Assembly (NCBI GenBank): GCA_016223045.1
Contig: JACRPT010000116.1
Location: 1 to 36,302 of the forward strand
Direction: 5' to 3'
Source of the DNA: Candidatus Eiseniibacteriota bacterium
GTDB taxonomy: Bacteria > Eisenbacteria > RBG-16-71-46
Length of the DNA: 36,302 nt
The notes beneath the pieces were generated by a model. The model saw only the letters and a list, made by a program, of their open reading frames with translations, ran no database searches and was not told the DNA's origin. Shown in pieces: positions 2,020 through 32,895 of the stretch (positions within the stretch are counted from its first letter, which is position 1; each line of letters starts with the position of its first letter). Both the position numbers and the translations under genes were made by a program.

Positions 2020-4446
2020 CTATCGGGTCACCACGAGCTTCAGCCGCGCGCTCGCCTCACCCGTCTCGAGGCTGCACAGGTAGATGCCGTGCCCCAGGCC
2101 CGACACCGGGAACGATGCGTGGTGTTCCCCGGCCGGAAGCCGCGCCCGGTCGAGGAGCGTGCGCACCGCGCGACCCTGCAGGTCGAACACTCGCAGCGTG
2201 ACGGTCCCGGCGCGCGCGAGCCGGAAGCGCAGCGTGGCCTCGCGCAAGACCGGGTTGGGCGCGCCGCGCAGCTCGAGCGCATCGGGGAGCCGCGCCGGCG
2301 GCCCGACGCCGACCACGCTAGGGTCCACGATCGCCACGACGTAGCTGTTGGGCTGCCACGAGATGTTGTAGAAGGAGCCGCCCGCGAAGATGGTGTTGCC
2401 CGATGCCAGCAGGGTCTTCACGCTGCCCGCCGCGGCCGGGTCCCACGTGGTGGCCAGCGCGGTGGTGACATCCAGCGACGCGATGTAGTAGCGCACGGCC
2501 GCCCCCGAGTTGAGGTTGGTGAAGTCCCCGCCCAGGTAGAGGGTCGCGCCGTTCACGCCCAGCGCCTGCACGGCGGCGTTCAAGAACGGGTTCCAGTTCG
2601 ACACGGTCCCGGCCGCGTCGATCTGCGCGAGATAGAAGATGGACTTGGCCCCGATCTGGGTGAAGCTCCCGCCCGCGTAGATCATGGATCCGCTCCGCGC
2701 GAGCGCCGTCACGGCGTTGTTCGCGTTCGGGTTCCAGGTCGTGGCGAGGCCGGTGGAGTCGAGCCGGGCGAGCCGGTTGCGCGCCTGGCCGCCGATGCTG
2801 GTGAAGTTGCCGCCGGCGATCACCACGTCCCCGTCCGGCAGCAGGGCGCTCACGACGCCGTTGGGAGCGGGATTCCAGCTCGTGGCGAGACCCGTGCCCG
2901 TGTCGAGCCGTGCGAGCCGGCTGCGGGCCTGGCCGCCGATGCTGGTGAAGTTGCCGGCCGCGTAGATCGCGGGCGCCTGGGCGGCGAGCAGCGTCACCGC
3001 GTTGTCGGCGTCGGGATTCCACGCCGTGAGCGCGCCGCTCGCGACATCGAAGGCGGCAATGCGCCGGCGGGTCTGCCCTGCGACCGTCGTGAAGTCGCCG
3101 CCCACGTAGAGCGCCGCCCCGGAGACGGCGAGAGCCAGCACGTTGCCGTTGGGATTCGGATCCCACGAGGTGGCCGCCCCGGTGGCGAGGTCGAGTGCGG
3201 CCAGCTTGTTGCGCTTCACCACGCCGACGCTGGAGAACGCGCCGCCCGCGACCAGGACCCCGCCGCCCGGCGCCAGCGTGTAGACGAAGGAGTTCGCACC
3301 TGGATTCCACGCGGTCGCCGTCCCGGTCGCGGCGTCCACGGCGGCGATGTAGCGGCGCGTCTGACCGCCGACCGAGAAGAAGCTCCCGCCGAGATAGACC
3401 GTGCCGCCGGCGACCGTGACCGCGTAGACGAAACTGTCGGCGTTGGGATTCCACGAGGTGGTTCCGCCGAAGGTGCTGTTGAGCGCCGCGATCCGGTTGC
3501 GTGACGAGCCGCCGATGCCCGTGAAGTCGCCGCCCGCGTAGATGGTGGACCCGCTGATTGCCAGCGCGCGCACCAAGCCGTTGGCATTGGGGTTCCACGA
3601 GCTGGCCAGGGCGGTGGTCACGCTCACGGCGCCGGCGGAGTTGCGGAGCTGGCCGCCGAGGCTCGAGAACTGGCCGCCGACGTAGAGCGTCGAGTCCGAG
3701 AGGAGCAGGGCGTGGACGAAACTGTTGGCCGCAGGATTCCAGGGGGTCGCCGCGCCGGTCGCGACGTCGAGCGCCGCCAGGGAATTGCGGGCGAGGCCGC
3801 CGATGGTCCCGAACTCGCCGCCGGCGAAGAGCGTGCTGCCGTTCAGCGCCAGCGCCCGCACGCGGCCGCTGGCGTTGGGATTCCATGCGGTCGCGGCGCC
3901 GGAGACGGCGTCGAGCGCGGCGATGCGGTTGCGCGACGAGCCGCCGATGGAAGTGAAGTCGCCCCCGGCGTAGAGGGTCGTCCCGCTCCGCAGGAGAGCG
4001 CGCACCGCGCCATTCGCCCCCGGATTCCACGACGGATCCGTGCTGCCGTCGGACAGGATGTGGGCGAGGTTCTGGCGGACCACGCCACCCGAGAGCTGGA
4101 ACTGGCCGCCGATGAACCAGCCGCCCGCCCCGTCCGGGACGGCCGCGTAGACACCGCCTGAGGCAACGACAGTGACCTTCGCGTAGGGTGCGACCGGGCT
4201 GCCCGTGGCGAGGTCTATGGCCGCGAACGCGCCGGACGCCGGTCCGACGTAGTCGAAGTTGCCGCCGATGTAGAGCGTGTCGCCGGACCTGGCGAGGGCC
4301 AGCACGCTGTTGTTCGCCACCCAGAGCTCCGGGTGGATGGTCTCGATCGCGGTCGCACGGCCGGCGAGCAGCATGGCCGCCGCCCAGAGGCAGGCCAGGC
4401 TGAGACCGGTCGCCCGGCCGGCGCCGATACGCCAGGACTTGTGCAC
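2020..4446 (-). CDS. secreted 14-repeat beta-propeller protein with C-terminal sorting domain
   Basis: About 808 residues, exported and probably displayed on the cell surface. GTG at 4446 is chosen because GGAGG lies just upstream and a signal peptide follows (positive VHKSWRIGAGRATG, then a hydrophobic stretch to about residue 34). The body is 14 copies of a 40-50-residue unit of the form LYAGGDFTSIGGxxRNRIAALD...ATxWNPNANGxVxAL, each with a GG-D/N/S/Q-F turn. These resemble the delta-60-like / DUF5122 repeats and are expected to form beta-propeller blades, so 14 units would make two seven-bladed propellers. The last 85 or so residues (LRGAPNPVLREATLRF to the GIYLCSLE turn) match a FlgD-like / type-IX-like C-terminal sorting domain. 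The ligand is unknown. It is transcribed alone, convergent with mtnA. Confidence 0.85.
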   Translation of the reverse strand: MHKSWRIGAGRATGLSLACLWAAAMLLAGRATAIETIHPELWVANNSVLALARSGDTLYIGGNFDYVGPASGAFAAIDLATGSPVAPYAKVTVVASGGVYAAVPDGAGGWFIGGQFQLSGGVVRQNLAHILSDGSTDPSWNPGANGAVRALLRSGTTLYAGGDFTSIGGSSRNRIAALDAVSGAATAWNPNASGRVRALALNGSTLFAGGEFGTIGGLARNSLAALDVATGAATPWNPAANSFVHALLLSDSTLYVGGQFSSLGGQLRNSAGAVSVTTALASSWNPNANGLVRALAISGSTIYAGGDFTGIGGSSRNRIAALNSTFGGTTSWNPNADSFVYAVTVAGGTVYLGGSFFSVGGQTRRYIAAVDAATGTATAWNPGANSFVYTLAPGGGVLVAGGAFSSVGVVKRNKLAALDLATGAATSWDPNPNGNVLALAVSGAALYVGGDFTTVAGQTRRRIAAFDVASGALTAWNPDADNAVTLLAAQAPAIYAAGNFTSIGGQARSRLARLDTGTGLATSWNPAPNGVVSALLPDGDVVIAGGNFTSIGGQARNRLARLDSTGLATTWNPNANNAVTALARSGSMIYAGGSFTQIGAKSIFYLAQIDAAGTVSNWNPFLNAAVQALGVNGATLYLGGDFTNLNSGAAVRYYIASLDVTTALATTWDPAAAGSVKTLLASGNTIFAGGSFYNISWQPNSYVVAIVDPSVVGVGPPARLPDALELRGAPNPVLREATLRFRLARAGTVTLRVFDLQGRAVRTLLDRARLPAGEHHASFPVSGLGHGIYLCSLETGEASARLKLVVTR

Positions 4447-4578
4447 GGGAGGTCCCTCCGACAGGTCACGGGATGCGGTGCCTTCTGGAGTATGGAACGC
4501 AGGATCCCGGAGGCAGGGGACAGCGCCCGGATTCTGCGGGTGCTCCGGAAGCTCCCGCAAGCGTGAGGTGGCATGGGT

Positions 4579-4584
4579 TAGAAT
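4579..4584 (+). promoter_or_regulatory. candidate minus-10 element TAGAAT
   Basis: TAGAAT fits the TATAAT consensus at five of six positions and lies 45 bp before the nucleotidyltransferase start. No convincing minus-35 is seen at 16-18 bp. The predicted transcript would begin near 4591 and include the GGAGG at 4614-4618. Confidence 0.4.
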
Positions 4585-4628
4585 CCCCGGGTCTGTTCGA
4601 CGCATCGGAGACCGGAGGTCTGAAGCGC

Positions 4629-5144
4629 ATGGAACGGCGCAGCATCGAGGCCATCGTGGACGCCCTGAACCGGGCTGGGGTTCGCTACCTCGTGGTCGGC
4701 GGGCTCGCGGTCGTCGTACATGGGTTCGTACGGTTCACGGCTGACGTCGATCTCGTGTTGGACCCGGAGCGGGATTCAATGCGACGCGCGATCGACGCGC
4801 TGTCGGGGCTCGGCTATCGCCCTCGCGCACCCGTTGCGCTCGGCGACTTCGCCGACCCGGAGAAGCGCCGAGCGTGGATTCGTGAGAAGGGTCTCACGGT
4901 GTTCTCGGTGTTCAGCCGCGAGCATCCAGCGACGGAGATCGACCTGTTCGTGGAGATCCCGTTCGACTTCGCGCGCGTGTACGCGAGTGCCGCACGCTTC
5001 GAAGTTGCGCCTGGGATCGCGGCCACGTTCGTCAGCCTCGCCGACCTGATCGAGATGAAGCGCAAGGCAGGGCGACCCCAGGATCTCCAGGATGTCGCCG
5101 AGCTCGAGTCGCGGCTGGAGTCGAAAGGAGACCCCGATGAGTGA
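4629..5144 (+). CDS. MNT-fold nucleotidyltransferase, DUF6036/AbiEii-like
   Basis: A 171-residue protein with the minimal nucleotidyltransferase signature: YLVVGGLAVVVHGFVRFT followed by ADVDLVLD, giving the GG motif, the D-x-D metal pair and the conserved Arg. A later EIDLFVEIPFDF supplies the third acidic strand, and a C-terminal LADLIEMKRKAGRPQDLQDV helix is typical of DUF6036 and AbiEii-type proteins. The start is ATG at 4629, with GGAGG at 4614-4618. It overlaps the next small gene by 8 bp, so the two are translationally coupled. Such pairs resemble toxin-antitoxin or MNT-partner modules; which substrate is nucleotidylated is unknown. The proposed antidote or partner relationship is inferred. 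Confidence 0.8.
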   Translation: MERRSIEAIVDALNRAGVRYLVVGGLAVVVHGFVRFTADVDLVLDPERDSMRRAIDALSGLGYRPRAPVALGDFADPEKRRAWIREKGLTVFSVFSREHPATEIDLFVEIPFDFARVYASAARFEVAPGIAATFVSLADLIEMKRKAGRPQDLQDVAELESRLESKGDPDE

Positions 5145-5442: not shown

Positions 5443-5511
5443 ATGAAACGGATCGTCTCGACCCTGGCCCTCCCGGCGCTCACGAGGTGCTCCCGATGCG
5501 TCCGACCCTGA
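5443..5511 (+). CDS. 22-codon leader or truncated signal-peptide ORF
   Basis: ATG at 5443 is preceded by GCAGGAGGCCTC, the best ribosome-binding site in this part of the window. The frame encodes MKRIVSTLALPALTRC and a few more residues, then stops at 5509-5511, inside the start of the MttB-family gene (5496). The first 14 residues look like the beginning of a signal peptide that breaks off. It is either the remnant of a deleted secreted-protein gene or a leader peptide that couples translation into the MttB gene. It is too short to judge by composition. Confidence 0.35.
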   Translation: MKRIVSTLALPALTRCSRCVRP

Positions 5512-6956
5512 GGCTGCTCGACGGCGCGCTGATCGAGCGCATCCTCGCCGAGGCGCGCGACCTGCTGGACGCCCTCGGCGTGGAGGTCCACAACCCGGAC
5601 CTGCTGGAGGCGCTCGCCGGGCACGGCGCCCGCGTGGACCGCGGCACGTCGCGCGCGCACCTGGGCGGAGCGCTGGTGGACCGCGCCCTGGCCACCGCGC
5701 CGCGCGAGTTCCGGCTCCACGACGTGCTCGGGCGCGAGACCCATCACTTCGGCGCCGGGCGCGTCTCCTTCACGCCGGGCTCGTCCGCGATCCACATCCT
5801 CGACGGCGAGACCGGGAAGATCCGCGAGCCGCTGACGGCCGACTACGTCCGCTACGTCAAGGTCGTGAGCGGCCTCACTCACATCGCCTCGCAGAGCACG
5901 GCGTTCGTCCCGGCCGACGTCCCGAGCCGCGTGTCCGACTCGTACCGCCTGTTCCTGAGCCTGCTCTATGGCGAGAAGCCCGTGGTCACGGGCGCCTTCA
6001 CCATCGAGGCGTTCGAGATCATGAAGGACCTGCAGCTCGCCGTGCGCGGCACTGCGGAGGCCCTGAGCGAACAGCCGCTGACCATCTTCTCGTGCTGCCC
6101 GACCGCGCCGCTCAAGTGGAGCGACGTCACCAGCCAGAACGTCGTGGACTGCGCGCGCTGGGGCATCCCGGTCGAGTTCATCTCCATGCCGCTCGCTGGC
6201 TTCATGTCGCCCGTCACTCTGGTGGGCTCGCTGGTCCAGCACGCCGCGGAGACGCTGAGCGGGCTGGTCATCAGCCAGGTCACCCGGCCGGGCGCCCCGG
6301 TGCTGTGGGGCGGCTCGCCCGCCATCTTCGACATCCGCTACGAGACCACGCCGATGGGCGCCATCGAGACCATGATGATGGACTGCGCCTACAGCGAGAT
6401 CGGGCACGCGCTGGGCCTGCCCACGCAGGCCTACATCGCGCTCTCCGACGCCAAGGCGCTGGACGCGCAGGCCGGTCTCGAAACCGGGATCGGCGCCACG
6501 CTCGCCGCGCTCTCGGGCATCGACAGCGTGTCGGGGCCCGGCATGCTCGACTTCGAATCCTGCCAGAGCCTGGAGAAGCTGGTGGTGGACGACGCGATCT
6601 GCGCCATGACGCAGCGCCTGACGCGGGGCATCGAGCCCCGGGATGATTTCCCGGCGCGCCCGCTGTTCGAGGAGCTGCTGCGCGAGAAGCACCTGCTGAT
6701 CGCCCGGCACACGCGCCGCCACCTGCGCGACGAGATCGCCTTCCCGGGTCCCGTGATCGACCGGGCCAACCAGGCGCGCTGGCTGGAGGAGGGCGGCCTG
6801 ACGCTCGGTCAGCGCGCCCGGCGCGAGGTGGCGCGGCTCATCGAGGCCTGGCAGCCGCCGCGGCTCGGCGACGACGTCAAGCGCGAGCTCATCCGGCGCA
6901 TGGAGTCCGAGGCGCGGCGCCACGGCATGGACGCGCTGCCGGAGCGCGCCGAATGA
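5496..6956 (+). CDS. MttB-superfamily corrinoid methyltransferase (non-pyrrolysine type)
   Basis: About 486 residues of the trimethylamine methyltransferase family (COG5598-like). Members transfer a methyl group from a quaternary or tertiary amine such as glycine betaine, carnitine, proline betaine or trimethylamine to the cobalt of a partner corrinoid protein. Family-like segments include FTPGSSAIHILDGETGKIREPL near residue 90, a central TIFSCCPTAPLKWSDV, VLWGGSPAIFDIRYETTPMGAIE and EIGHALGLPTQAYIALSDAK. The frame has no internal TAG, so this is a pyrrolysine-free paralogue whose substrate is probably a quaternary amine; the exact substrate cannot be read from sequence. ATG at 5496 with GAGG nine bases upstream is preferred over GTG at 5487. 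It overlaps the next gene by ATGA. Confidence 0.88.
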   Translation: MRPTLRLLDGALIERILAEARDLLDALGVEVHNPDLLEALAGHGARVDRGTSRAHLGGALVDRALATAPREFRLHDVLGRETHHFGAGRVSFTPGSSAIHILDGETGKIREPLTADYVRYVKVVSGLTHIASQSTAFVPADVPSRVSDSYRLFLSLLYGEKPVVTGAFTIEAFEIMKDLQLAVRGTAEALSEQPLTIFSCCPTAPLKWSDVTSQNVVDCARWGIPVEFISMPLAGFMSPVTLVGSLVQHAAETLSGLVISQVTRPGAPVLWGGSPAIFDIRYETTPMGAIETMMMDCAYSEIGHALGLPTQAYIALSDAKALDAQAGLETGIGATLAALSGIDSVSGPGMLDFESCQSLEKLVVDDAICAMTQRLTRGIEPRDDFPARPLFEELLREKHLLIARHTRRHLRDEIAFPGPVIDRANQARWLEEGGLTLGQRARREVARLIEAWQPPRLGDDVKRELIRRMESEARRHGMDALPERAE

Positions 6957-7660
6957 GAGAGCGGGTCAGGTGGACCGCGGCCGACTCGGTCCCCGAGCGC
7001 GCGGAGGTCCTGAGCCTGCAGGGCATGCCGCCCGGGGCCGGCGTGCCGCCGCGCATCGCGGCGCTCCACGATGCGGCGCTCGCCGCCTATTTGGAGGCCG
7101 CCGAGCCGCGCGCCATCGTCGGCGAGATCTCGCGCGAGGAGTTCGCCGAGGTCTACCGCGGCGCGGGACGCAACGCCGCCGCGACGCCGCTCGAGGCCGT
7201 GTTCCCCCGGGCGGACCGCCTCGCGCTCTTCACGGCCACCGTCGGTCGCGGGCTCACGGAGCGCATCCGCGATCTGTTCGAGCGGAACGAGCCGGCGCTG
7301 GCCGCCATGCTCGACTCGGTCGCCTCGGCCGCGGCCGACCGCCTCGCCACGCTGCTCGGGCCGCGCTACCTGGCGATGGCCGGCGACGCCGGCGCGAACG
7401 GGGCGCGCGTGCTGGCGTACAGTCCCGGCTACTGCGGCTGGCACGTGAGCGGCCAGCGCGCGCTGTTCGCGTTCCTGGAGCCCGGGGAGATCGGCGTCAC
7501 ACTCAATCCGAGTTGCCTGATGGAGCCGCTCAAGTCGGTCTCGGGCGTGCTGGTCGCCGGTCCGGCCGGGATCCATCGGTTCGCTCCGGCATTCCCGTTC
7601 TGCGCGGAGTGCCGGGAGAAGCCGTGCCGCGAGCGGATCGCGGCGCTGTCGGGATCGTGA
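6953..7660 (+). CDS. MetH reactivation-domain-like protein with C-terminal Cys motif
   Basis: A 235-residue protein resembling the AdoMet-binding activation domain of B12-dependent methionine synthase. It has AYSPGYCGWHVSGQRALFAF (residues 155-174), matching the PGY loop of MetH, then IGVTLNPSCLMEPLKSVSG (180-198), matching the strand with the conserved M-x-P-x-x-S-V-S-G. In MetH this domain reductively methylates cob(II)alamin that has become oxidised. The last 20 residues carry C217-x2-C220-x4-C225, absent from MetH, which could hold a metal or Fe-S centre for electron delivery. It starts on ATGA overlapping the MttB-family stop and lies just before the corrinoid carrier gene, so its client is probably that carrier (inferred). 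Confidence 0.85.
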   Translation: MRERVRWTAADSVPERAEVLSLQGMPPGAGVPPRIAALHDAALAAYLEAAEPRAIVGEISREEFAEVYRGAGRNAAATPLEAVFPRADRLALFTATVGRGLTERIRDLFERNEPALAAMLDSVASAAADRLATLLGPRYLAMAGDAGANGARVLAYSPGYCGWHVSGQRALFAFLEPGEIGVTLNPSCLMEPLKSVSGVLVAGPAGIHRFAPAFPFCAECREKPCRERIAALSGS

Positions 7661-7673
7661 GGTGGGAGGAGCC

Positions 7674-8315
7674 ATGAACATCCTGTCCGAGATCGGCGAG
7701 AGCCTTCAGCGGGGCGAGGACGACCGGGTTGGCGCGCTGGTGCGCCAGGCCCTCGAGCAGCGGTGCGAGCCGCATCGGATCCTCAACGAGGGCCTGATCG
7801 CCGGCATGGACGTGGTCGGCGAGCAGTTCCGCCTGCGCGAGATCTTCCTGCCCGACGTGCTGCTCGCGGCGCGCGCGATGTACACCGGGCTCGACCTGCT
7901 GAGGCCGCTGCTCGCGCGCGACGGCGTGCCCACGGCCGGCCGGGTGGTGCTCGGCTCGGTGCACGGCGACCTGCACGACATCGGCAAGAACCTGGTGAGC
8001 ATCATGCTCAAGGGCGCCGGGTTCGACGTGATGGACCTCGGGAACGACGTGCCGGCCGAGAGGTTCGTGGACGCCGCCCGGGAGCATGGCGCGTCGGTCA
8101 TCGGACTCTCCGCGCTGCTCACCACCACCATGCCGGTGATGAAGGAGGTCGTGGAGCTGGTGCGGGCGCGCGGCCTCGCCGGCCGGGTCAGGGTGATCGT
8201 CGGCGGTGCGCCCGTCTCGGAAGCCTGGGCGCGCGAGATCGGCGCCGATGCCCACGGCTACGACGCCGCGAACGCCGTCGAGCGCGTGCGCGCGCTGGTC
8301 GCGGCGAGGGGCTGA
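7674..8315 (+). CDS. methyl-accepting corrinoid protein (MtbC/MttC/MtgC-like)
   Basis: A 213-residue methyl carrier. The first 85 or so residues form the helical cap domain (LPDVLLAARAMYTGLDLL), and the rest is the Rossmann-like cobalamin-binding domain. The key motif GDLHDIGKNLV carries D99-x-H101-x2-G104; H101 is the expected lower axial cobalt ligand. It is followed by SALLTTTMPVMKEVV and VIVGGAPV as in the MtxC and MetH B12 domains. ATG at 7674 follows GGGAGGAGCC. It would accept a methyl group from the MttB-family protein and pass it on. A Hcy-type acceptor gene follows 114 bp downstream. Confidence 0.93.
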   Translation: MNILSEIGESLQRGEDDRVGALVRQALEQRCEPHRILNEGLIAGMDVVGEQFRLREIFLPDVLLAARAMYTGLDLLRPLLARDGVPTAGRVVLGSVHGDLHDIGKNLVSIMLKGAGFDVMDLGNDVPAERFVDAAREHGASVIGLSALLTTTMPVMKEVVELVRARGLAGRVRVIVGGAPVSEAWAREIGADAHGYDAANAVERVRALVAARG

Positions 8316-8397
8316 GGGCGTGCCGGGCGCCGGGCGGCTGCCGTACCCCGCTGCTGTACGCGGCGGGAGGGACGCACCTCGCACCGGGGAGCAGCAC

Positions 8398-8421
8398 AAG
8401 GGTCCGCGCTCCGGCGCGGAC
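8398..8421 (+). promoter_or_regulatory. perfect hairpin between an AAGGG and the homocysteine methyltransferase start
   Basis: GTCCGCGC (8402-8409), TCCG loop, GCGCGGAC (8414-8421): a perfect 8-bp stem with a 4-nt loop, directly after AAGGG (8398-8402) and 8 nt before ATG 8430. No other ribosome-binding site is near. Folding would bring AAGGG to a normal distance from the ATG, so the stem may help set translation. There is no T-run, so it is unlikely to be a terminator. Confidence 0.4.
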
Positions 8422-8429
8422 AGCCGCGC

Positions 8430-9308
8430 ATGATCGCGCTGCTCGAACGCCTGCGCTCCGGTGAGGTCCTGGTCGGCGACGGCGCGCTGGGGACGCTGCT
8501 GATGACGCGCGGGCTTCGGCCCGGCGCGGCCCCGGAAGCCCTCAACCTGTCGCATCCCGAGACGCTCGAGGAGATCGCGCGGCTCTACCTCGAAGCCGGC
8601 GCCGATCTCGTCACCACCAACAGCTTCGGCGGCTCGCCCGCGCGGCTGCGCCGCTACGGGCTGGAGGACCGCACCGAGGAGATCAATCGCGCGGCCGTCC
8701 TGGCGGTGCGTCGGGCCGTGGGGGACCGTGCGTACGTGTCCGCATCCATCGGCTCCAGCGGCCACCTGCTCAAGCCCTACGGCGACGGCGATCCCGGTGA
8801 GATCGCCGCCGGGTACGAGCGGCAGATCCGCGCGCTCGCCGCGGCCGGTGCCGACCTCGTCTGCATCGAGACCATGACCGACCTGGCCGAGGCGGTGCTG
8901 GCGGTGCGGGCGGCGCGCGCGGTCGCGCCCGCCCTTCCCGTGATGGCGACCATGACCTTCGAGCGGACGCGGCGCGGGTTCTTCACGGTGATGGGCGCTT
9001 CCATCGAGCAGGCCGTGCACGGCCTCACCGAAGCCGGCGCCGACATCCTGGGCTCGAACTGCGGCAACGGCAGCGCGGTGATGGGCGAGATCGCGCGCGA
9101 GTTCCGCGCGCGCACGGACCGGCCCATCGCGATCCAGCCCAACGCCGGTCTGCCCGAGCCGCGCGGCGGTACGATCGTCTATCCCGAGACACCGGAGTTC
9201 ATGGCGGAGAACGCGAAGGCGCTGGTGAAGCTGGGCGTCGCCATCGTCGGCGGCTGCTGCGGCACCACGCCGGAGCACGTGCGGGCGCTGCGGGACGCGG
9301 TGGGGTAG
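8430..9308 (+). CDS. homocysteine S-methyltransferase domain protein (MetH N-terminal module as a separate gene)
   Basis: A 292-residue Zn-dependent homocysteine methyltransferase barrel (Pfam S-methyl_trans type). Seen are the GDGALGTLLMTRGL start, ADLVTTNSFGGSPARLR, EINRAAV, CIETMTDLAEA and the zinc ligands C211 (GSNCGNG) and C276-C277 (GGCCGTTPEH). In MetH this domain binds homocysteine and accepts the cobalt-bound methyl group to form methionine. Here it is free-standing, as in MtnA/BHMT/MmuM relatives, but its position after a corrinoid carrier and activation protein suggests it takes methyl from that carrier. Alternatives are an SMM- or betaine-homocysteine methyltransferase acting alone. 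The gene ends in TAG. Confidence 0.9.
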   Translation: MIALLERLRSGEVLVGDGALGTLLMTRGLRPGAAPEALNLSHPETLEEIARLYLEAGADLVTTNSFGGSPARLRRYGLEDRTEEINRAAVLAVRRAVGDRAYVSASIGSSGHLLKPYGDGDPGEIAAGYERQIRALAAAGADLVCIETMTDLAEAVLAVRAARAVAPALPVMATMTFERTRRGFFTVMGASIEQAVHGLTEAGADILGSNCGNGSAVMGEIAREFRARTDRPIAIQPNAGLPEPRGGTIVYPETPEFMAENAKALVKLGVAIVGGCCGTTPEHVRALRDAVG

Positions 9309-14757: not shown

Positions 14758-17367
14758 ATGAAGGATCATCCGATCGGAGTCCCGGGCGCACACGGCGGCT
14801 CACACCTCGTCCCGATCGGGCTGCGCGAGCTGCTCGACGCGGCCCCCGACGTGGTGTGCTGCTGCGACGCCGACGGCCGCCTGCTGTGGCTGAACCCCGC
14901 CTTCGAGACCCTCACGGGCCGCGAGGCCGCGGGGCAGATCGGCCGCCACTTCTCCGCGCTCATCGCTGTCGAGGACCGCGGTCGTGTGCTGCGCGCGACG
15001 CTGCGCCAGCGCCGTCGCCGCACGCCGGTCACCGAGGTGGCGCTCGCGCTGGCGGGCGCGGAGGGCCGCACGGTGAACGTGCGCGCACGCGTGCGCCTGC
15101 TCGAGCGCGCCGACGGCGGGCAGGTGTTCGTGGCGGTGGCGCGCGAAGCGGCGCCGGCGGCGGAACCGGCGTTGCCCCACGGTCGCGCTCCGGAGACCGC
15201 CCTCGAGCGCCAGGTCCATGAGCTGACCGGGCAGGTGGAGGAGGCGCGCGGGCTGGCCCAGGCCAAGGCCGACTTCCTCTCCACCATGAGCCATGAGATC
15301 CGCACGCCGATGAACGGCATCATGGGGATGAGCCACCTGCTGCTCGAGACCGAGCTGGACCGCGATCAGCGCGCGATGGTGGAGGTGATGCAGAACTCGA
15401 GCCGCATGCTGCTGGCGCTGGTCAACGACACGCTCGACTTCTCCAAGATCGAGTCGGGCCGGCTCGAGCTGGAGCACATCGACTTCGACCTGCGCGTGGC
15501 GGTCTCCGAGATCGTGGCGTTGCTGGCGCCGACCGCGAACGAGAAGGGCCTGGACATGGAATGCAGGGTGAGCCACGAGGTGCCCTCGCGCCTCAGGGGC
15601 GACCCCGGCCGGCTGCGCCAGGTGCTGCTGAACCTGGCGAGCAACGCCATCAAGTTCACCGAGAAGGGCGGCGTGACGGTCTCGATCGAGCGCCTGAGCG
15701 AGGACGACCAGCACGTCTCCCTGCGCCTCGCGGTGAGCGACACCGGCATCGGCATCACCGAAGAGCAGAGGGCAAGGCTGTTCGAGGCTTACCGCCAGGC
15801 GGACGCCTCGACCTCGCGCAAGTACGGCGGCACCGGGCTCGGGCTGGCAATCTCGCGCAAGCTGGTGGGTCTGATGGGCGGCGAGGTGGGGGTGGAGAGC
15901 GAGCCGGGCGCGGGCAGCACGTTCTGGTTCAATGTCGGATTGGAGAAGCAGCCGCGCGAGCAGACGCCGGCGCGGCCCCCGGACGTCGAGCTGCAGGGCG
16001 CGCCCGTGCTGGTGGTGGACCCCTCGAGCGTGGCGCGCCGGCTGCTGTGCGAGCAGCTCGCGAGCTGGGGCTGTCGTGTCGGCGAGGCCGCGGACGCGGA
16101 GCAGGCGATGGAGCAGCTGTGCGCCGCGGCGACCGCCGGGAAGCCCTACCGCATCGCGATCATCGAGCGCGAGCTGGGCGCACCGAACGGCGAGGAGCTG
16201 GGCGCCGCGGTGCGCAACCGCGAGCAGCTCGCCGCGACGCTCATGGTGCTGGTGACGACCGTCGGCCGGCGCGGCGACGCGGTCCGCGCCCGGGAGCGCG
16301 GGTTCTCGGCCTACCTGCTCAAGCCCTTCGACTGGGAGGACCTCACGGCGGCGCTCGTCGAGGTGCTGCACGGCGGCGACGCGGCGCCGGAGCAGGAGTC
16401 GCCGTCGCTGGTCACGCGCCACTCGCTCGCCGAGGCCCGCCGCGGCCGGGTGCGCGCGCTGCTGGTCGAGGACAGCGCCGTGAACCAGCTGGTCGCTCAG
16501 TGGACGCTGCACCGTCTCGGCTACACGCTCGACATGGCCACGACCGGCGCGGAAGCGCTCGAAGCGTGCGCGAAGCAGGCCTACGACCTGGTGCTCATGG
16601 ACCTGCATCTGCCCGACATGGACGGCTTCGAGCTGACGGCGGAGCTGCGGGCCCGCGACGGCGATGCGCGCCATACGCCGATCGTGGCGATGACGGGAAG
16701 CGCGCTCCCCGGCGACCGCGAGAAGTGCCTGGCGGCGGGGATGGACGACTACCTCACCAAGCCGGTGGACCTGGGGCTGCTGTGCCAGGTGGTGGAGCAC
16801 TGGACCGCGGGAGTGTCGGGCGAAGCGCCCGGACCGCGCGCGGGAGCCGAGTCGGAGACGGCGCCGGCCGCGTCGGGTCAGGCGACCGGGTCCGCGGGGA
16901 CGGAGACCGGCGACGTGGCGGCGGCCGCGCCCGCCCCGACGCCCGACCTGCTCTCGGAGGCCGACGTGCTCCCGATTCAGGCGGGCGCGCCCGAGCCGGG
17001 CCCGGAGGACGGACCGCAGCCGGCGCTCGACGTGGAGCGGCTCGAGGAGATGTGCATGGGCGTCCCGGCGCTGCGCGACTCGCTCCTCAACACCTTCCTG
17101 GGCGAGGTGCGCCCGCGCCTGGATCGGCTGGGCGAGGCGGTCGCGGCGCTGGACGCCAGGCGCGTCGAGTTCGAGGCGCACGGCCTCAAGGGCATGTCGG
17201 CCACGGTCGGCGCGCTCCCGAGCGCCGAGGTGTTCCTCCAGCTCGAGGAGCTGGGGCGCGAGGGTGACCTCGCCGGCGCGGGCCCGCTGATGAAGCGCGC
17301 GCTGCTCGAGGTGGCACGCGCCGAGCGCTTCGTCAGTGGCATGGAGCGCGACCTGCTGGCGGCGTAG
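14758..17367 (+). CDS. cytoplasmic hybrid histidine kinase, PAS-HisKA-HATPase-REC-REC-Hpt
   Basis: 869 residues with no membrane segment. A PAS domain (about 22-130) is followed by a linker helix, then HisKA with the phosphorylated H179 ([13 protein letters not shown]). The HATPase has an N box ([11 protein letters not shown]), G1 (SDTGIGI) and G2 ([13 protein letters not shown]). The first receiver (416-537) is degenerate: the phospho-acceptor position is E470 (IAIIERELG), although K522 (LLKPF) is kept. The second receiver (566-680) is complete, with E571-D572, D615 ([13 protein letters not shown]) and K668. A Pro/Ala-rich linker leads to an Hpt domain with H808 ([13 protein letters not shown]). 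The order supports an H179-D615-H808 relay to an unlinked response regulator. ATG 14758 has only a weak GAGG upstream. No partner regulator gene is adjacent. Confidence 0.93.
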
Positions 17368-31654: not shown

Positions 31655-32842
31655 TCAACGCGCGGCCGGCTTCTCGATCTGCAGCGGGGCAGGTACCGGC
31701 TGTGCGGCCGGGCGCGTCGCCAGCATGAGCGGCACCGCCGGGTACGCCCAGGCGAGCCAGGCCAGCGCCCACAGCGCGCCGCTCGCGGCCAGCAGCGGCG
31801 TGGTCCGCGCGGGCGCGAACTCGGCGCCGAGGCGCGAGGCGAGCGCCAGCGCCAGCAGCGCCAGCGGCGGCACGCCCAGCACGCGCCGCTCCAGCGCGAG
31901 CGCGTGGCCGCCGTGGACCGTCACCACGCGGGTCGCGATCCCCATGGTGAGAAGCCCGAAGCCGGCGATGAAGACGATGTGCTCGCCGGCCAGCAGGTGC
32001 GACGGCCAGAGCGCGGTGAGCCACAGTCCGGCCAGCACGCCCCAGCCGGCCGACCACAGCACGTACGCGTGCAGCGCGCGGCGGCCGGGCCGGCGGTGGA
32101 GCTTCCACGCGAGGAAGAGCATCGGCGTCGCCGCCAGCGCGCGCAGCCAGGCGGCGAGCGCGCGGTGGAGCAGCCCCTCGGCTACGAACGAGGCGGCGAG
32201 CAGCAGCGCGACCGCGAGGTAGAACGCGCGGCGGCCGCGCCGCTCGTGCGGTGAGGCGATCCGCGGGAGCGAGAGCGGGTCGCGCACGCCGATGAAGGTC
32301 GGCACCAGCAGGCTGCCCACGCCGATGACGAGCGAGAGCACCATGCCGAGCGACACCAGCCTCAGCCCGAGGCCGGGCGCCGGCTCGTTCCACCAGCCGG
32401 CGGCCTGGCCCAGGAGCATCGCGCCGCCGGTGAGACCCTGGGCGAGGCCGAGCAGGATGAAGACGATCTCCTCGGGCGGGCCGCCGCGCCCCGGCGCCGA
32501 GCGGCGGCCGGAGGCCGTGATCAGCACCAGCACCGTGAGCAGGAAGCCGGCCTGCGCGATTGCCATCGCGCCGGCCGCGGCGCCGACGCCGAACAGCGCC
32601 ACGCCCGCGATCGCCAGCGCCAGCTCGGCAGGATGGAACCTCCCGCCGTGCGTGAGCCCGGAGAGCGCGGTCAGGACGAAGCCCGCGACGAAGCTCGTCT
32701 CGAAGCCCTGGATCATGAGCGCGCGATGCGCGGGCCCGGGGTAGGGGATCCAGCCGGCGGCGTGGATCGGCCACAGCAGCGCGCCGCAGAGGGCGCAGGC
32801 GACGCCGATGGGGAACAGCACGCGGTAGGGGTCGAGGCGCAT
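31655..32842 (-). CDS. NnrS-family membrane protein
   Basis: 395 residues from MRLDPYRVLFP (ATG 32842), with about 12 hydrophobic spans. It has the NnrS-like FPIGVACALCGALLWPIHAA, FETSFVAGFVLTALSGLTHG, LVPTFIGVRDPL and EHIVFIAGFGLLTMGIATRV, where the His and Gly pattern is that of the haem- and copper-containing NnrS proteins linked to nitric-oxide and nitrosative stress. A longer start at ATG 32890 would lie inside a palindrome and has no ribosome-binding site, so the shorter start is taken. Regulation by a factor binding that palindrome is possible. No denitrification genes are in the window. Confidence 0.85.
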   Translation of the reverse strand: MRLDPYRVLFPIGVACALCGALLWPIHAAGWIPYPGPAHRALMIQGFETSFVAGFVLTALSGLTHGGRFHPAELALAIAGVALFGVGAAAGAMAIAQAGFLLTVLVLITASGRRSAPGRGGPPEEIVFILLGLAQGLTGGAMLLGQAAGWWNEPAPGLGLRLVSLGMVLSLVIGVGSLLVPTFIGVRDPLSLPRIASPHERRGRRAFYLAVALLLAASFVAEGLLHRALAAWLRALAATPMLFLAWKLHRRPGRRALHAYVLWSAGWGVLAGLWLTALWPSHLLAGEHIVFIAGFGLLTMGIATRVVTVHGGHALALERRVLGVPPLALLALALASRLGAEFAPARTTPLLAASGALWALAWLAWAYPAVPLMLATRPAAQPVPAPLQIEKPAAR

Positions 32843-32871
32843 GGCGCGAGACTGCCGTGGCGCGACCGGCG

Positions 32872-32895
32872 GCGGTATGACGGCCGTCATGCCGC
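32872..32895. promoter_or_regulatory. 24-bp near-perfect palindrome upstream of nnrS, candidate operator
   Basis: The core ATGACGGCCGTCAT (32877-32890) is a perfect 14-bp palindrome. Both flanks extend it with GCGG/CCGC and a single mismatched pair. It is centred about 41 bp before ATG 32842, a usual operator position. The regulator is unknown. Confidence 0.45.

Follow-up and report, generated by a model that had tools for sequence, protein, structure and literature searches.

Four adjacent genes on an Eiseniibacteriota contig

The stretch of DNA analysed here (the window) is a 36,302-nucleotide contig of a Candidatus Eiseniibacteriota bacterium (JACRPT010000116.1), labelled C88 in a genome of 3.88 Mb that is 97.6% complete (G000). 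It contains four consecutive genes, all on the forward strand, whose products resemble modules of the B12-dependent methionine synthase MetH. The first gene (5496-6956) encodes a methyltransferase of the MttB family (PF06253, COG5598; 486 amino acids), the likely donor module, matching PF06253 along the whole length of the family (residues 6-469, E=1.6e-68, 231 bits). The second (6953-7660) encodes a stand-alone MetH-type activation (reactivation) protein of 235 amino acids, Act, which features an SPGYCGW motif and a C-terminal C217-x2-C220-x4-C225 tail, and matches only the C-terminal half of the activation domain (PF02965, residues 87-205, E=5.6e-8). The third (7674-8315) encodes an MtgC-like corrinoid (cobalamin) carrier, Cor, recognized by PF02607 (4.9e-21) and PF02310 (8.2e-29) and carrying the motif D99-x-H101-x2-G104. 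The fourth (8430-9308) encodes a homocysteine S-methyltransferase (HMT) of 292 amino acids (PF02574, E=2.6e-65), in which the Cys3 zinc module is present (ligands C211, C276 and C277). The four modules, their coordinates and residue numbers, as given by an original prediction made from the sequence letters, were all found correct by re-reading and comparison with Pfam. The same is true of its description of MetH modules as separate genes, with an MttB-type protein instead of the folate module: no PF00809 match is found in the four genes.

The genes are tightly packed, and the act start overlaps the mttB stop (ATGA). The mttB start was placed at the ATG at 5496, because relatives likewise begin with (M/V/L)RP. 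The Cor frame is open from a GTG at 7662; the ATG at 7674, preceded by AGGAG, was preferred as start, and the numbering of H101 counts from it. Chance frames are excluded, because the G+C content at third codon positions of the four genes is 93-96% and homologues are found in many phyla. A scan for promoters and terminators found nothing.

Judging from its AlphaFold model (mean confidence, pLDDT, 85; predicted template modelling score 0.84), Act has the fold of a MetH activation domain: the best structural match is 1j6r, the TM0269 protein of T. maritima (E=5e-12), followed by the activation domains of MetH from E. coli (1msk, E=1.5e-8), human and Thermus. The use of S-adenosylmethionine (AdoMet) by Act is uncertain, because the Arg of the R-x3-G-Y motif, which we take to be an AdoMet contact in E. 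coli MetH (R1134), is replaced by Ala here; Arg is found at this position in 29 of the 80 loci described below. The cysteine tail had been proposed to be a built-in redox centre, absent from MetH. The tail is real and invariant, being found in the window protein, in all 80 loci and in three divergent clusters (G026, G032 and G034), but it is not peculiar to this system: the stand-alone activator of Ruminococcus albus ends with the near-identical CSACNMKDVC (CxxCx5C), so the tail probably belongs to stand-alone activators as such and not to the four-gene set in particular. The solved TM0269 chain ends 10 residues past the aligned part and apparently lacks it. In the Act model the tail is of low confidence (pLDDT about 50-57), and metal geometry is not readable from it. 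C161, beside SPGY, was considered as a fourth ligand and rejected: although it does not vary within the main clade, one of the search patterns included this residue, and G026, G032 and G034 lack it.

Conservation and descent of the gene set

Public genome contigs were searched with Act alone, a choice which leaves the conservation of MttB, Cor and HMT unbiased. At least 560 relatives were found, and the best 80 loci were analysed. The complete set is present in 60 of them, arranged as MttB-Act-Cor-HMT in 58 and as Act-MttB-Cor-HMT in the other two; median intergenic gaps are -1, 34.5 and 10 bp. Complete clusters were found under the record labels Eisenbacteria, Acidobacteria, Cloacimonadota, WOR-3, Planctomycetota (Phycisphaerae), Neomarinimicrobiota, Gemmatimonadota, Zixibacteria, Fermentibacteria, Electryonea, Bacteroidetes, Armatimonadetes, TA06 and Aegiribacteria; the spread of the cluster in these loci amounts to about a dozen phylum-level lineages, mostly uncultured. 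On gene content and order the four genes are a conserved unit, and the search for the same arrangement in other genomes, suggested by the original prediction as a check, had a clear outcome. Plasmid records, searched with Act, gave no match. No published description of the four-gene cluster was found in the literature searched, a body of work from which most subscription journals were absent.

Within the same class, the order MttB-Act-Cor-HMT is kept in 7 relatives, with identities of 60-91% for MttB, 38-74% for Act, 58-85% for Cor and 58-84% for HMT. Among the four proteins, conservation is highest in MttB, with a mean column identity of 80%; in the 7 aligned HMTs the zinc ligands Cys211, Cys276 and Cys277 are invariant, as are many other positions. 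Two distant clusters, G032 and G034, feature a different gene order (Cor-HMT-Act-MttB in G032). Partial arrangements were also seen: MttB adjoins Act, with neither Cor nor HMT nearby, at L108, L120, L121, L142 and L150 and in G026 (L038), and HMT directly follows Act at L092 (5968-7601) and L161 (5965-7556), with no MttB or Cor in the contig stretch.

The modules appear to have a composite origin. Cor scores best against MtgC models (209 bits, vs 141 for MetH), and in phmmer comparisons its score is 182 bits with S. meliloti MtgC, vs 99 with the MetH of its own genome. HMT reaches 161 bits with MtgE, and the MttB protein 105 bits with an MttB-family protein of S. meliloti. In quick trees, some branches of which are long, the cluster HMTs form one clade (21 rows, SH-aLRT support 99), separate from the MetH domains, from S. 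meliloti MtgE and from HMT-MetF fusions, and near the HMTs of divergent clusters and of a Gemmatirosa plasmid; cluster Cor proteins group with MtgC-type carriers, the B12 domains of MetH lying on the other side. From these comparisons, the system looks as if a demethylase pair had been joined by an HMT and an activator, and not as if MetH had been split. The picture of a methionine synthase taken apart, put forward in the original prediction, may thus be kept as a description of function, but not of descent.

A related arrangement is found in a cultivated organism, on plasmid 1 of Gemmatirosa kalamazoonensis (L172, 4992-5906 and upstream), where genes for a UroD-type protein, a corrinoid protein, a RACo-type activase, an uncharacterised 403-amino-acid protein and an HMT are consecutive. 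The 403-amino-acid protein weakly matches Act, and the row may represent an analogous system in which the donor module is a different one.

Predicted function and its alternatives

The four genes probably specify a single B12-dependent, folate-independent methionine synthase composed of separate proteins. The MttB protein would detach the methyl group of a methylated compound and load it on the Co(I) corrinoid of Cor; methyl-Cor would then dock on the zinc HMT, where homocysteine would be converted to methionine, the presumed physiological direction. Upon accidental oxidation to Co(II), the MetH-like Act would restore the corrinoid by reductive methylation.

Homocysteine had been proposed as the acceptor, and this is what the available folate-side enzymes suggest. 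Only two PF00809 proteins are found in the window genome, a FolP-like one (327-amino-acid frame, E=3.6e-79) and the folate domain of MetH; the same search detected no stand-alone, non-FolP pterin methyltransferase similar to MtgD or MtgA. Homocysteine is therefore the likely acceptor. A stand-alone pterin protein scoring unlike FolP is found in just 2 of 50 other cluster genomes (G067 and G089), and HMT is the usual neighbour: homocysteine is likely to be the usual, perhaps not the universal, acceptor.

The main support for the role in methionine synthesis comes, in our reading of the genomes, from the distribution of other methionine synthases. A MetH-type pterin domain is found in 34 of the 50 other cluster genomes, and no PF00809 match at all in 2; the remaining 14 have a FolP-type match without a MetH pterin domain, and from 11 of them PF01717 is missing as well (G043, G045, G057, G063, G064, G068, G070, G072, G075, G083 and G086). 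Two of the 11 are single-contig chromosomes, G045 (WOR-3, CP070686) and G070 (Gemmatimonadota, CP070716). Two more genomes, G034 (100% complete, with a divergent cluster) and G038 (89%), have neither MetH nor PF01717, and in both the cluster HMT is the only PF02574 protein. In total, neither MetH nor MetE/core-MetE was found in 13 cluster genomes. Loss of full-length metH, which the original prediction had put forward for inspection, is thus seen in these 13 genomes but not in that of the window, which features an intact MetH of 1199 amino acids complete with the folate domain (PF02574, PF00809, PF02607, PF02310 and PF02965), as well as a 631-amino-acid HMT-MetF fusion; no MetE-like (PF01717) protein was found in the genome. 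A TAG at first taken to lie inside metH is the stop codon of that gene. The presence of this MetH is the first of the findings that the original prediction had named as telling against itself. The cluster seems to work beside an ordinary MetH in the window organism, and to act as the sole methionine synthase in some other lineages.

Several observations weigh against this interpretation. Given its intact MetH, the window genome shows no obvious need of a second route. Most cluster genomes are metagenome-assembled, and gene absences in them are provisional. MetX (TIGR01392) was detected in none of the 13 genomes, apart from two partial weak matches, and a de novo source of homocysteine is thus not evidenced: these organisms might obtain it by recycling or by a different pathway, or they might be auxotrophic. 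MetX is, however, an uninformative marker, being absent from the window genome too, despite the presence of MetH. In at least 8 loci MttB and Act, in some cases with Cor, are found without HMT despite the availability of downstream sequence (L097, L108, L119, L120, L121, L133, L142 and L150). Finally, in one Gemmatimonadetes locus (L125, 1-1997, - strand), a PF00809 protein and MetF/MetV lie divergently beside MttB-Act; no HMT is visible there, as the contig ends. This single locus with a folate-side neighbour may be a folate-linked version of the MttB-Act core and, like the 8 loci without HMT, suggests that the acceptor can differ.

As for the donor, the MttB protein is the only PF06253 protein in the window genome. 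It has no in-frame amber codon, the pyrrolysine position being occupied by Leu316, and it scores 320 bits, where the TIGR02369 cut-off lies at 525: it is not a pyrrolysine (trimethylamine) MttB. Its relatives in the PDB are 9yce, 2qne and 7xcl, and its identity to rhizobial and roseobacter homologues is only 27-30%. A docking study proposed four residues of DhMtgB, Y94, N199, R309 and H345, for glycine betaine (PMC6855144). These align to Ser96, Cys201, Gln311 and a gap, so that none of the four is kept, in an alignment of about 27-30% identity; at this level their loss may be taken as a lead, not as proof. These residues lend no support to the suggestion of glycine betaine or another quaternary amine as donor, although such a compound may still be the methyl source. 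Judging by family, the donor is probably an N-methyl compound, and the high conservation of MttB among relatives suggests a single common substrate. The predicted structure of the MttB protein (pLDDT 65, below 50 in the catalytic half) is too poor for a fold search or for reading the pocket. Flanking genes indicate no clear substrate: they show no enrichment for betaine transport or for dimethylglycine or sarcosine breakdown, the commonest families being Cys/Met-metabolism pyridoxal-phosphate enzymes upstream (4 of 102), and sigma factors, major facilitator superfamily transporters, radical SAM proteins and amino-acid permeases downstream.

Other roles may be imagined for the same genes. MttB and Cor could strip methyl groups from osmolytes, for energy or detoxification, with homocysteine/methionine or folate as a mere sink, as for MtgBCD of Ruegeria and Desulfitobacterium. 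This would agree with the demethylase activity of the characterised MttB homologues (PMC8604678, PMC6855144, PMC12478193) and with the folate-type acceptor (PF00809 and MetF) beside MttB-Act in L125, but the composition of the flanks, the lack of a stand-alone pterin acceptor in the window genome and the usual vicinity of HMT speak against it, and we consider such a role rather unlikely. A smaller chance is given to the possibility that the HMT methylates a different thiol, or a selenol, in place of homocysteine, and that the operon makes another S-methyl compound. Some PF02574 enzymes use different acceptors or donors, the cluster HMTs are a clade distinct from both MetH and S. meliloti MtgE, and a second methionine synthase would be redundant in the 34 genomes where MetH coexists. 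Yet the zinc ligands and many other HMT positions are invariant, MetH-type activators partner methionine synthases in the known cases, and the 13 genomes above have no other recognisable methionine synthase.

Another view, in line with the S. meliloti matches of Cor, HMT and MttB reported above, is that the cluster is just the occurrence in a further lineage of the known MtgBCE system for glycine betaine and methionine. We find it quite unlikely, given the low identity of MttB to its rhizobial and roseobacter homologues, the replacement of the DhMtgB residues, and the use in Ruegeria of RamA and DUF1638 together with a requirement for MtgD (PMC12478193), whereas a MetH-type activator and no MtgD are found here. 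Least credible, to the point of being very improbable, is that MttB donates methyl groups to the full-length MetH of the same cell, Cor and HMT being a remnant or an accessory: MttB-Act pairs devoid of both do exist, but the 58-85% identity of Cor and HMT among relatives, with intact motifs, indicates that both are under selection.

If the four-protein methionine synthase is real, a folate-independent methionine route, passing methyl groups directly from an MttB-type demethylase to homocysteine, would exist in about a dozen mostly uncultured lineages, while the common view has methionine synthesis rely on methyl-folate or, for the core synthases, on central one-carbon carriers. It would explain how methionine may be made in genomes devoid of MetH and MetE, and predictions of auxotrophy and of the demand for B12 would shift. 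The cluster also offers a compact system for finding the substrate of a large, unassigned MttB subfamily. A broader version of the proposal, in which many uncultured phyla make methionine with four proteins and no folate, from a common methylated metabolite other than glycine betaine, and with an iron-sulphur or zinc centre in the cysteine tail of Act replacing the AdoMet site, is speculative and, taken as a whole, doubtful.

Elsewhere in the window, an aldolase-II-type protein weakly matching methylthioribulose-1-phosphate dehydratase (MtnB; 62-727, +) and S-methyl-5-thioribose-1-phosphate isomerase (MtnA; 786-1901, +) are encoded upstream of the cluster. A link with methionine salvage, raised by these mtnB/mtnA-like genes 3.6 kb upstream, was discarded, as neither is found in the stretch around the cluster of the nearest relative, G010. 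They are followed by a gene for an 861-amino-acid beta-propeller-repeat protein (DUF5122) with a weak Por secretion C-terminal sorting tail (2020-4605, -), and, just upstream of the cluster, by a weak DUF6036 nucleotidyltransferase match (4473-5144, +) and then a 101-amino-acid open reading frame of no family. Farther downstream lie genes for a hybrid histidine kinase with PAS, two receiver and Hpt domains (14758-17367, +) and for an NnrS-family protein (31655-32890, -).

Comparison with known systems

Among described systems, MtgBCDE of Ruegeria pomeroyi (PMC12478193) comes closest. There, as in the split methionine synthase of Phaeobacter inhibens (PMC12478193) and in the S. meliloti pSymB cluster (L169), a separate MttB-type donor and a PF02574 homocysteine module share one MtgC-type carrier, which ties demethylation to methionine, as proposed here. 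In Ruegeria, however, neither job can do without the pterin module MtgD, the corrinoid is reactivated by RamA/DUF1638, and mtgE is often not beside mtgBCD (PMC12478193). In contrast, the window genome lacks MtgD, the activator is of the MetH type, the four genes form one conserved operon, and MttB belongs to a distant subfamily with other pocket residues. RamA and DUF1638 are absent from the window cluster, to which this comparison was confined, no genome-wide search having been made. As the 2025 work on Ruegeria has demethylation and methionine synthesis share a carrier, the present cluster would be a version of that system minus the folate branch.

The predicted methylation of an MtgC/MtqC-type corrinoid protein by a non-pyrrolysine MttB recalls MtgBC/MtgA, MtpB, MtcB and MtyB of Desulfitobacterium and Eubacterium. 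These systems pass the methyl group to tetrahydrofolate through a pterin methyltransferase, whereas here the neighbour is an HMT. A stand-alone activator beside the synthase is also found in T. maritima (TM0268/TM0269) and in the two-gene MetH of R. albus (L171), where the activator has a similar tail; TM0269 is needed to reactivate TM0268, according to the title of reference 44 in PMC7857596. In both cases, unlike here, the synthase is one long chain (788 amino acids in R. albus) with no adjoining MttB.

Methionine formation without folate is shared with MesA-MesD, of which MesA-C use a methyl-corrinoid protein (PMC7857596), but Mes proteins are MetE-like (PF01717), while the cluster HMT belongs to PF02574. 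Type 1 mlp clusters (PMC10418091) similarly combine a dedicated corrinoid protein with methyltransferases, and have been proposed to feed methionine salvage; they contain UroD-type methyltransferases and a RACE activase, and neither MttB nor a MetH-type activator. With MetH itself the cluster has in common the HMT, B12 and activation functions, the zinc Cys3 and the D-x-H-x2-G motif, but the folate domain is missing, the modules are separate genes, and they do not descend from the MetH of the window genome. We infer that the cluster functions like a MetH without folate, while in membership it is neither MetH nor MtgBCDE.

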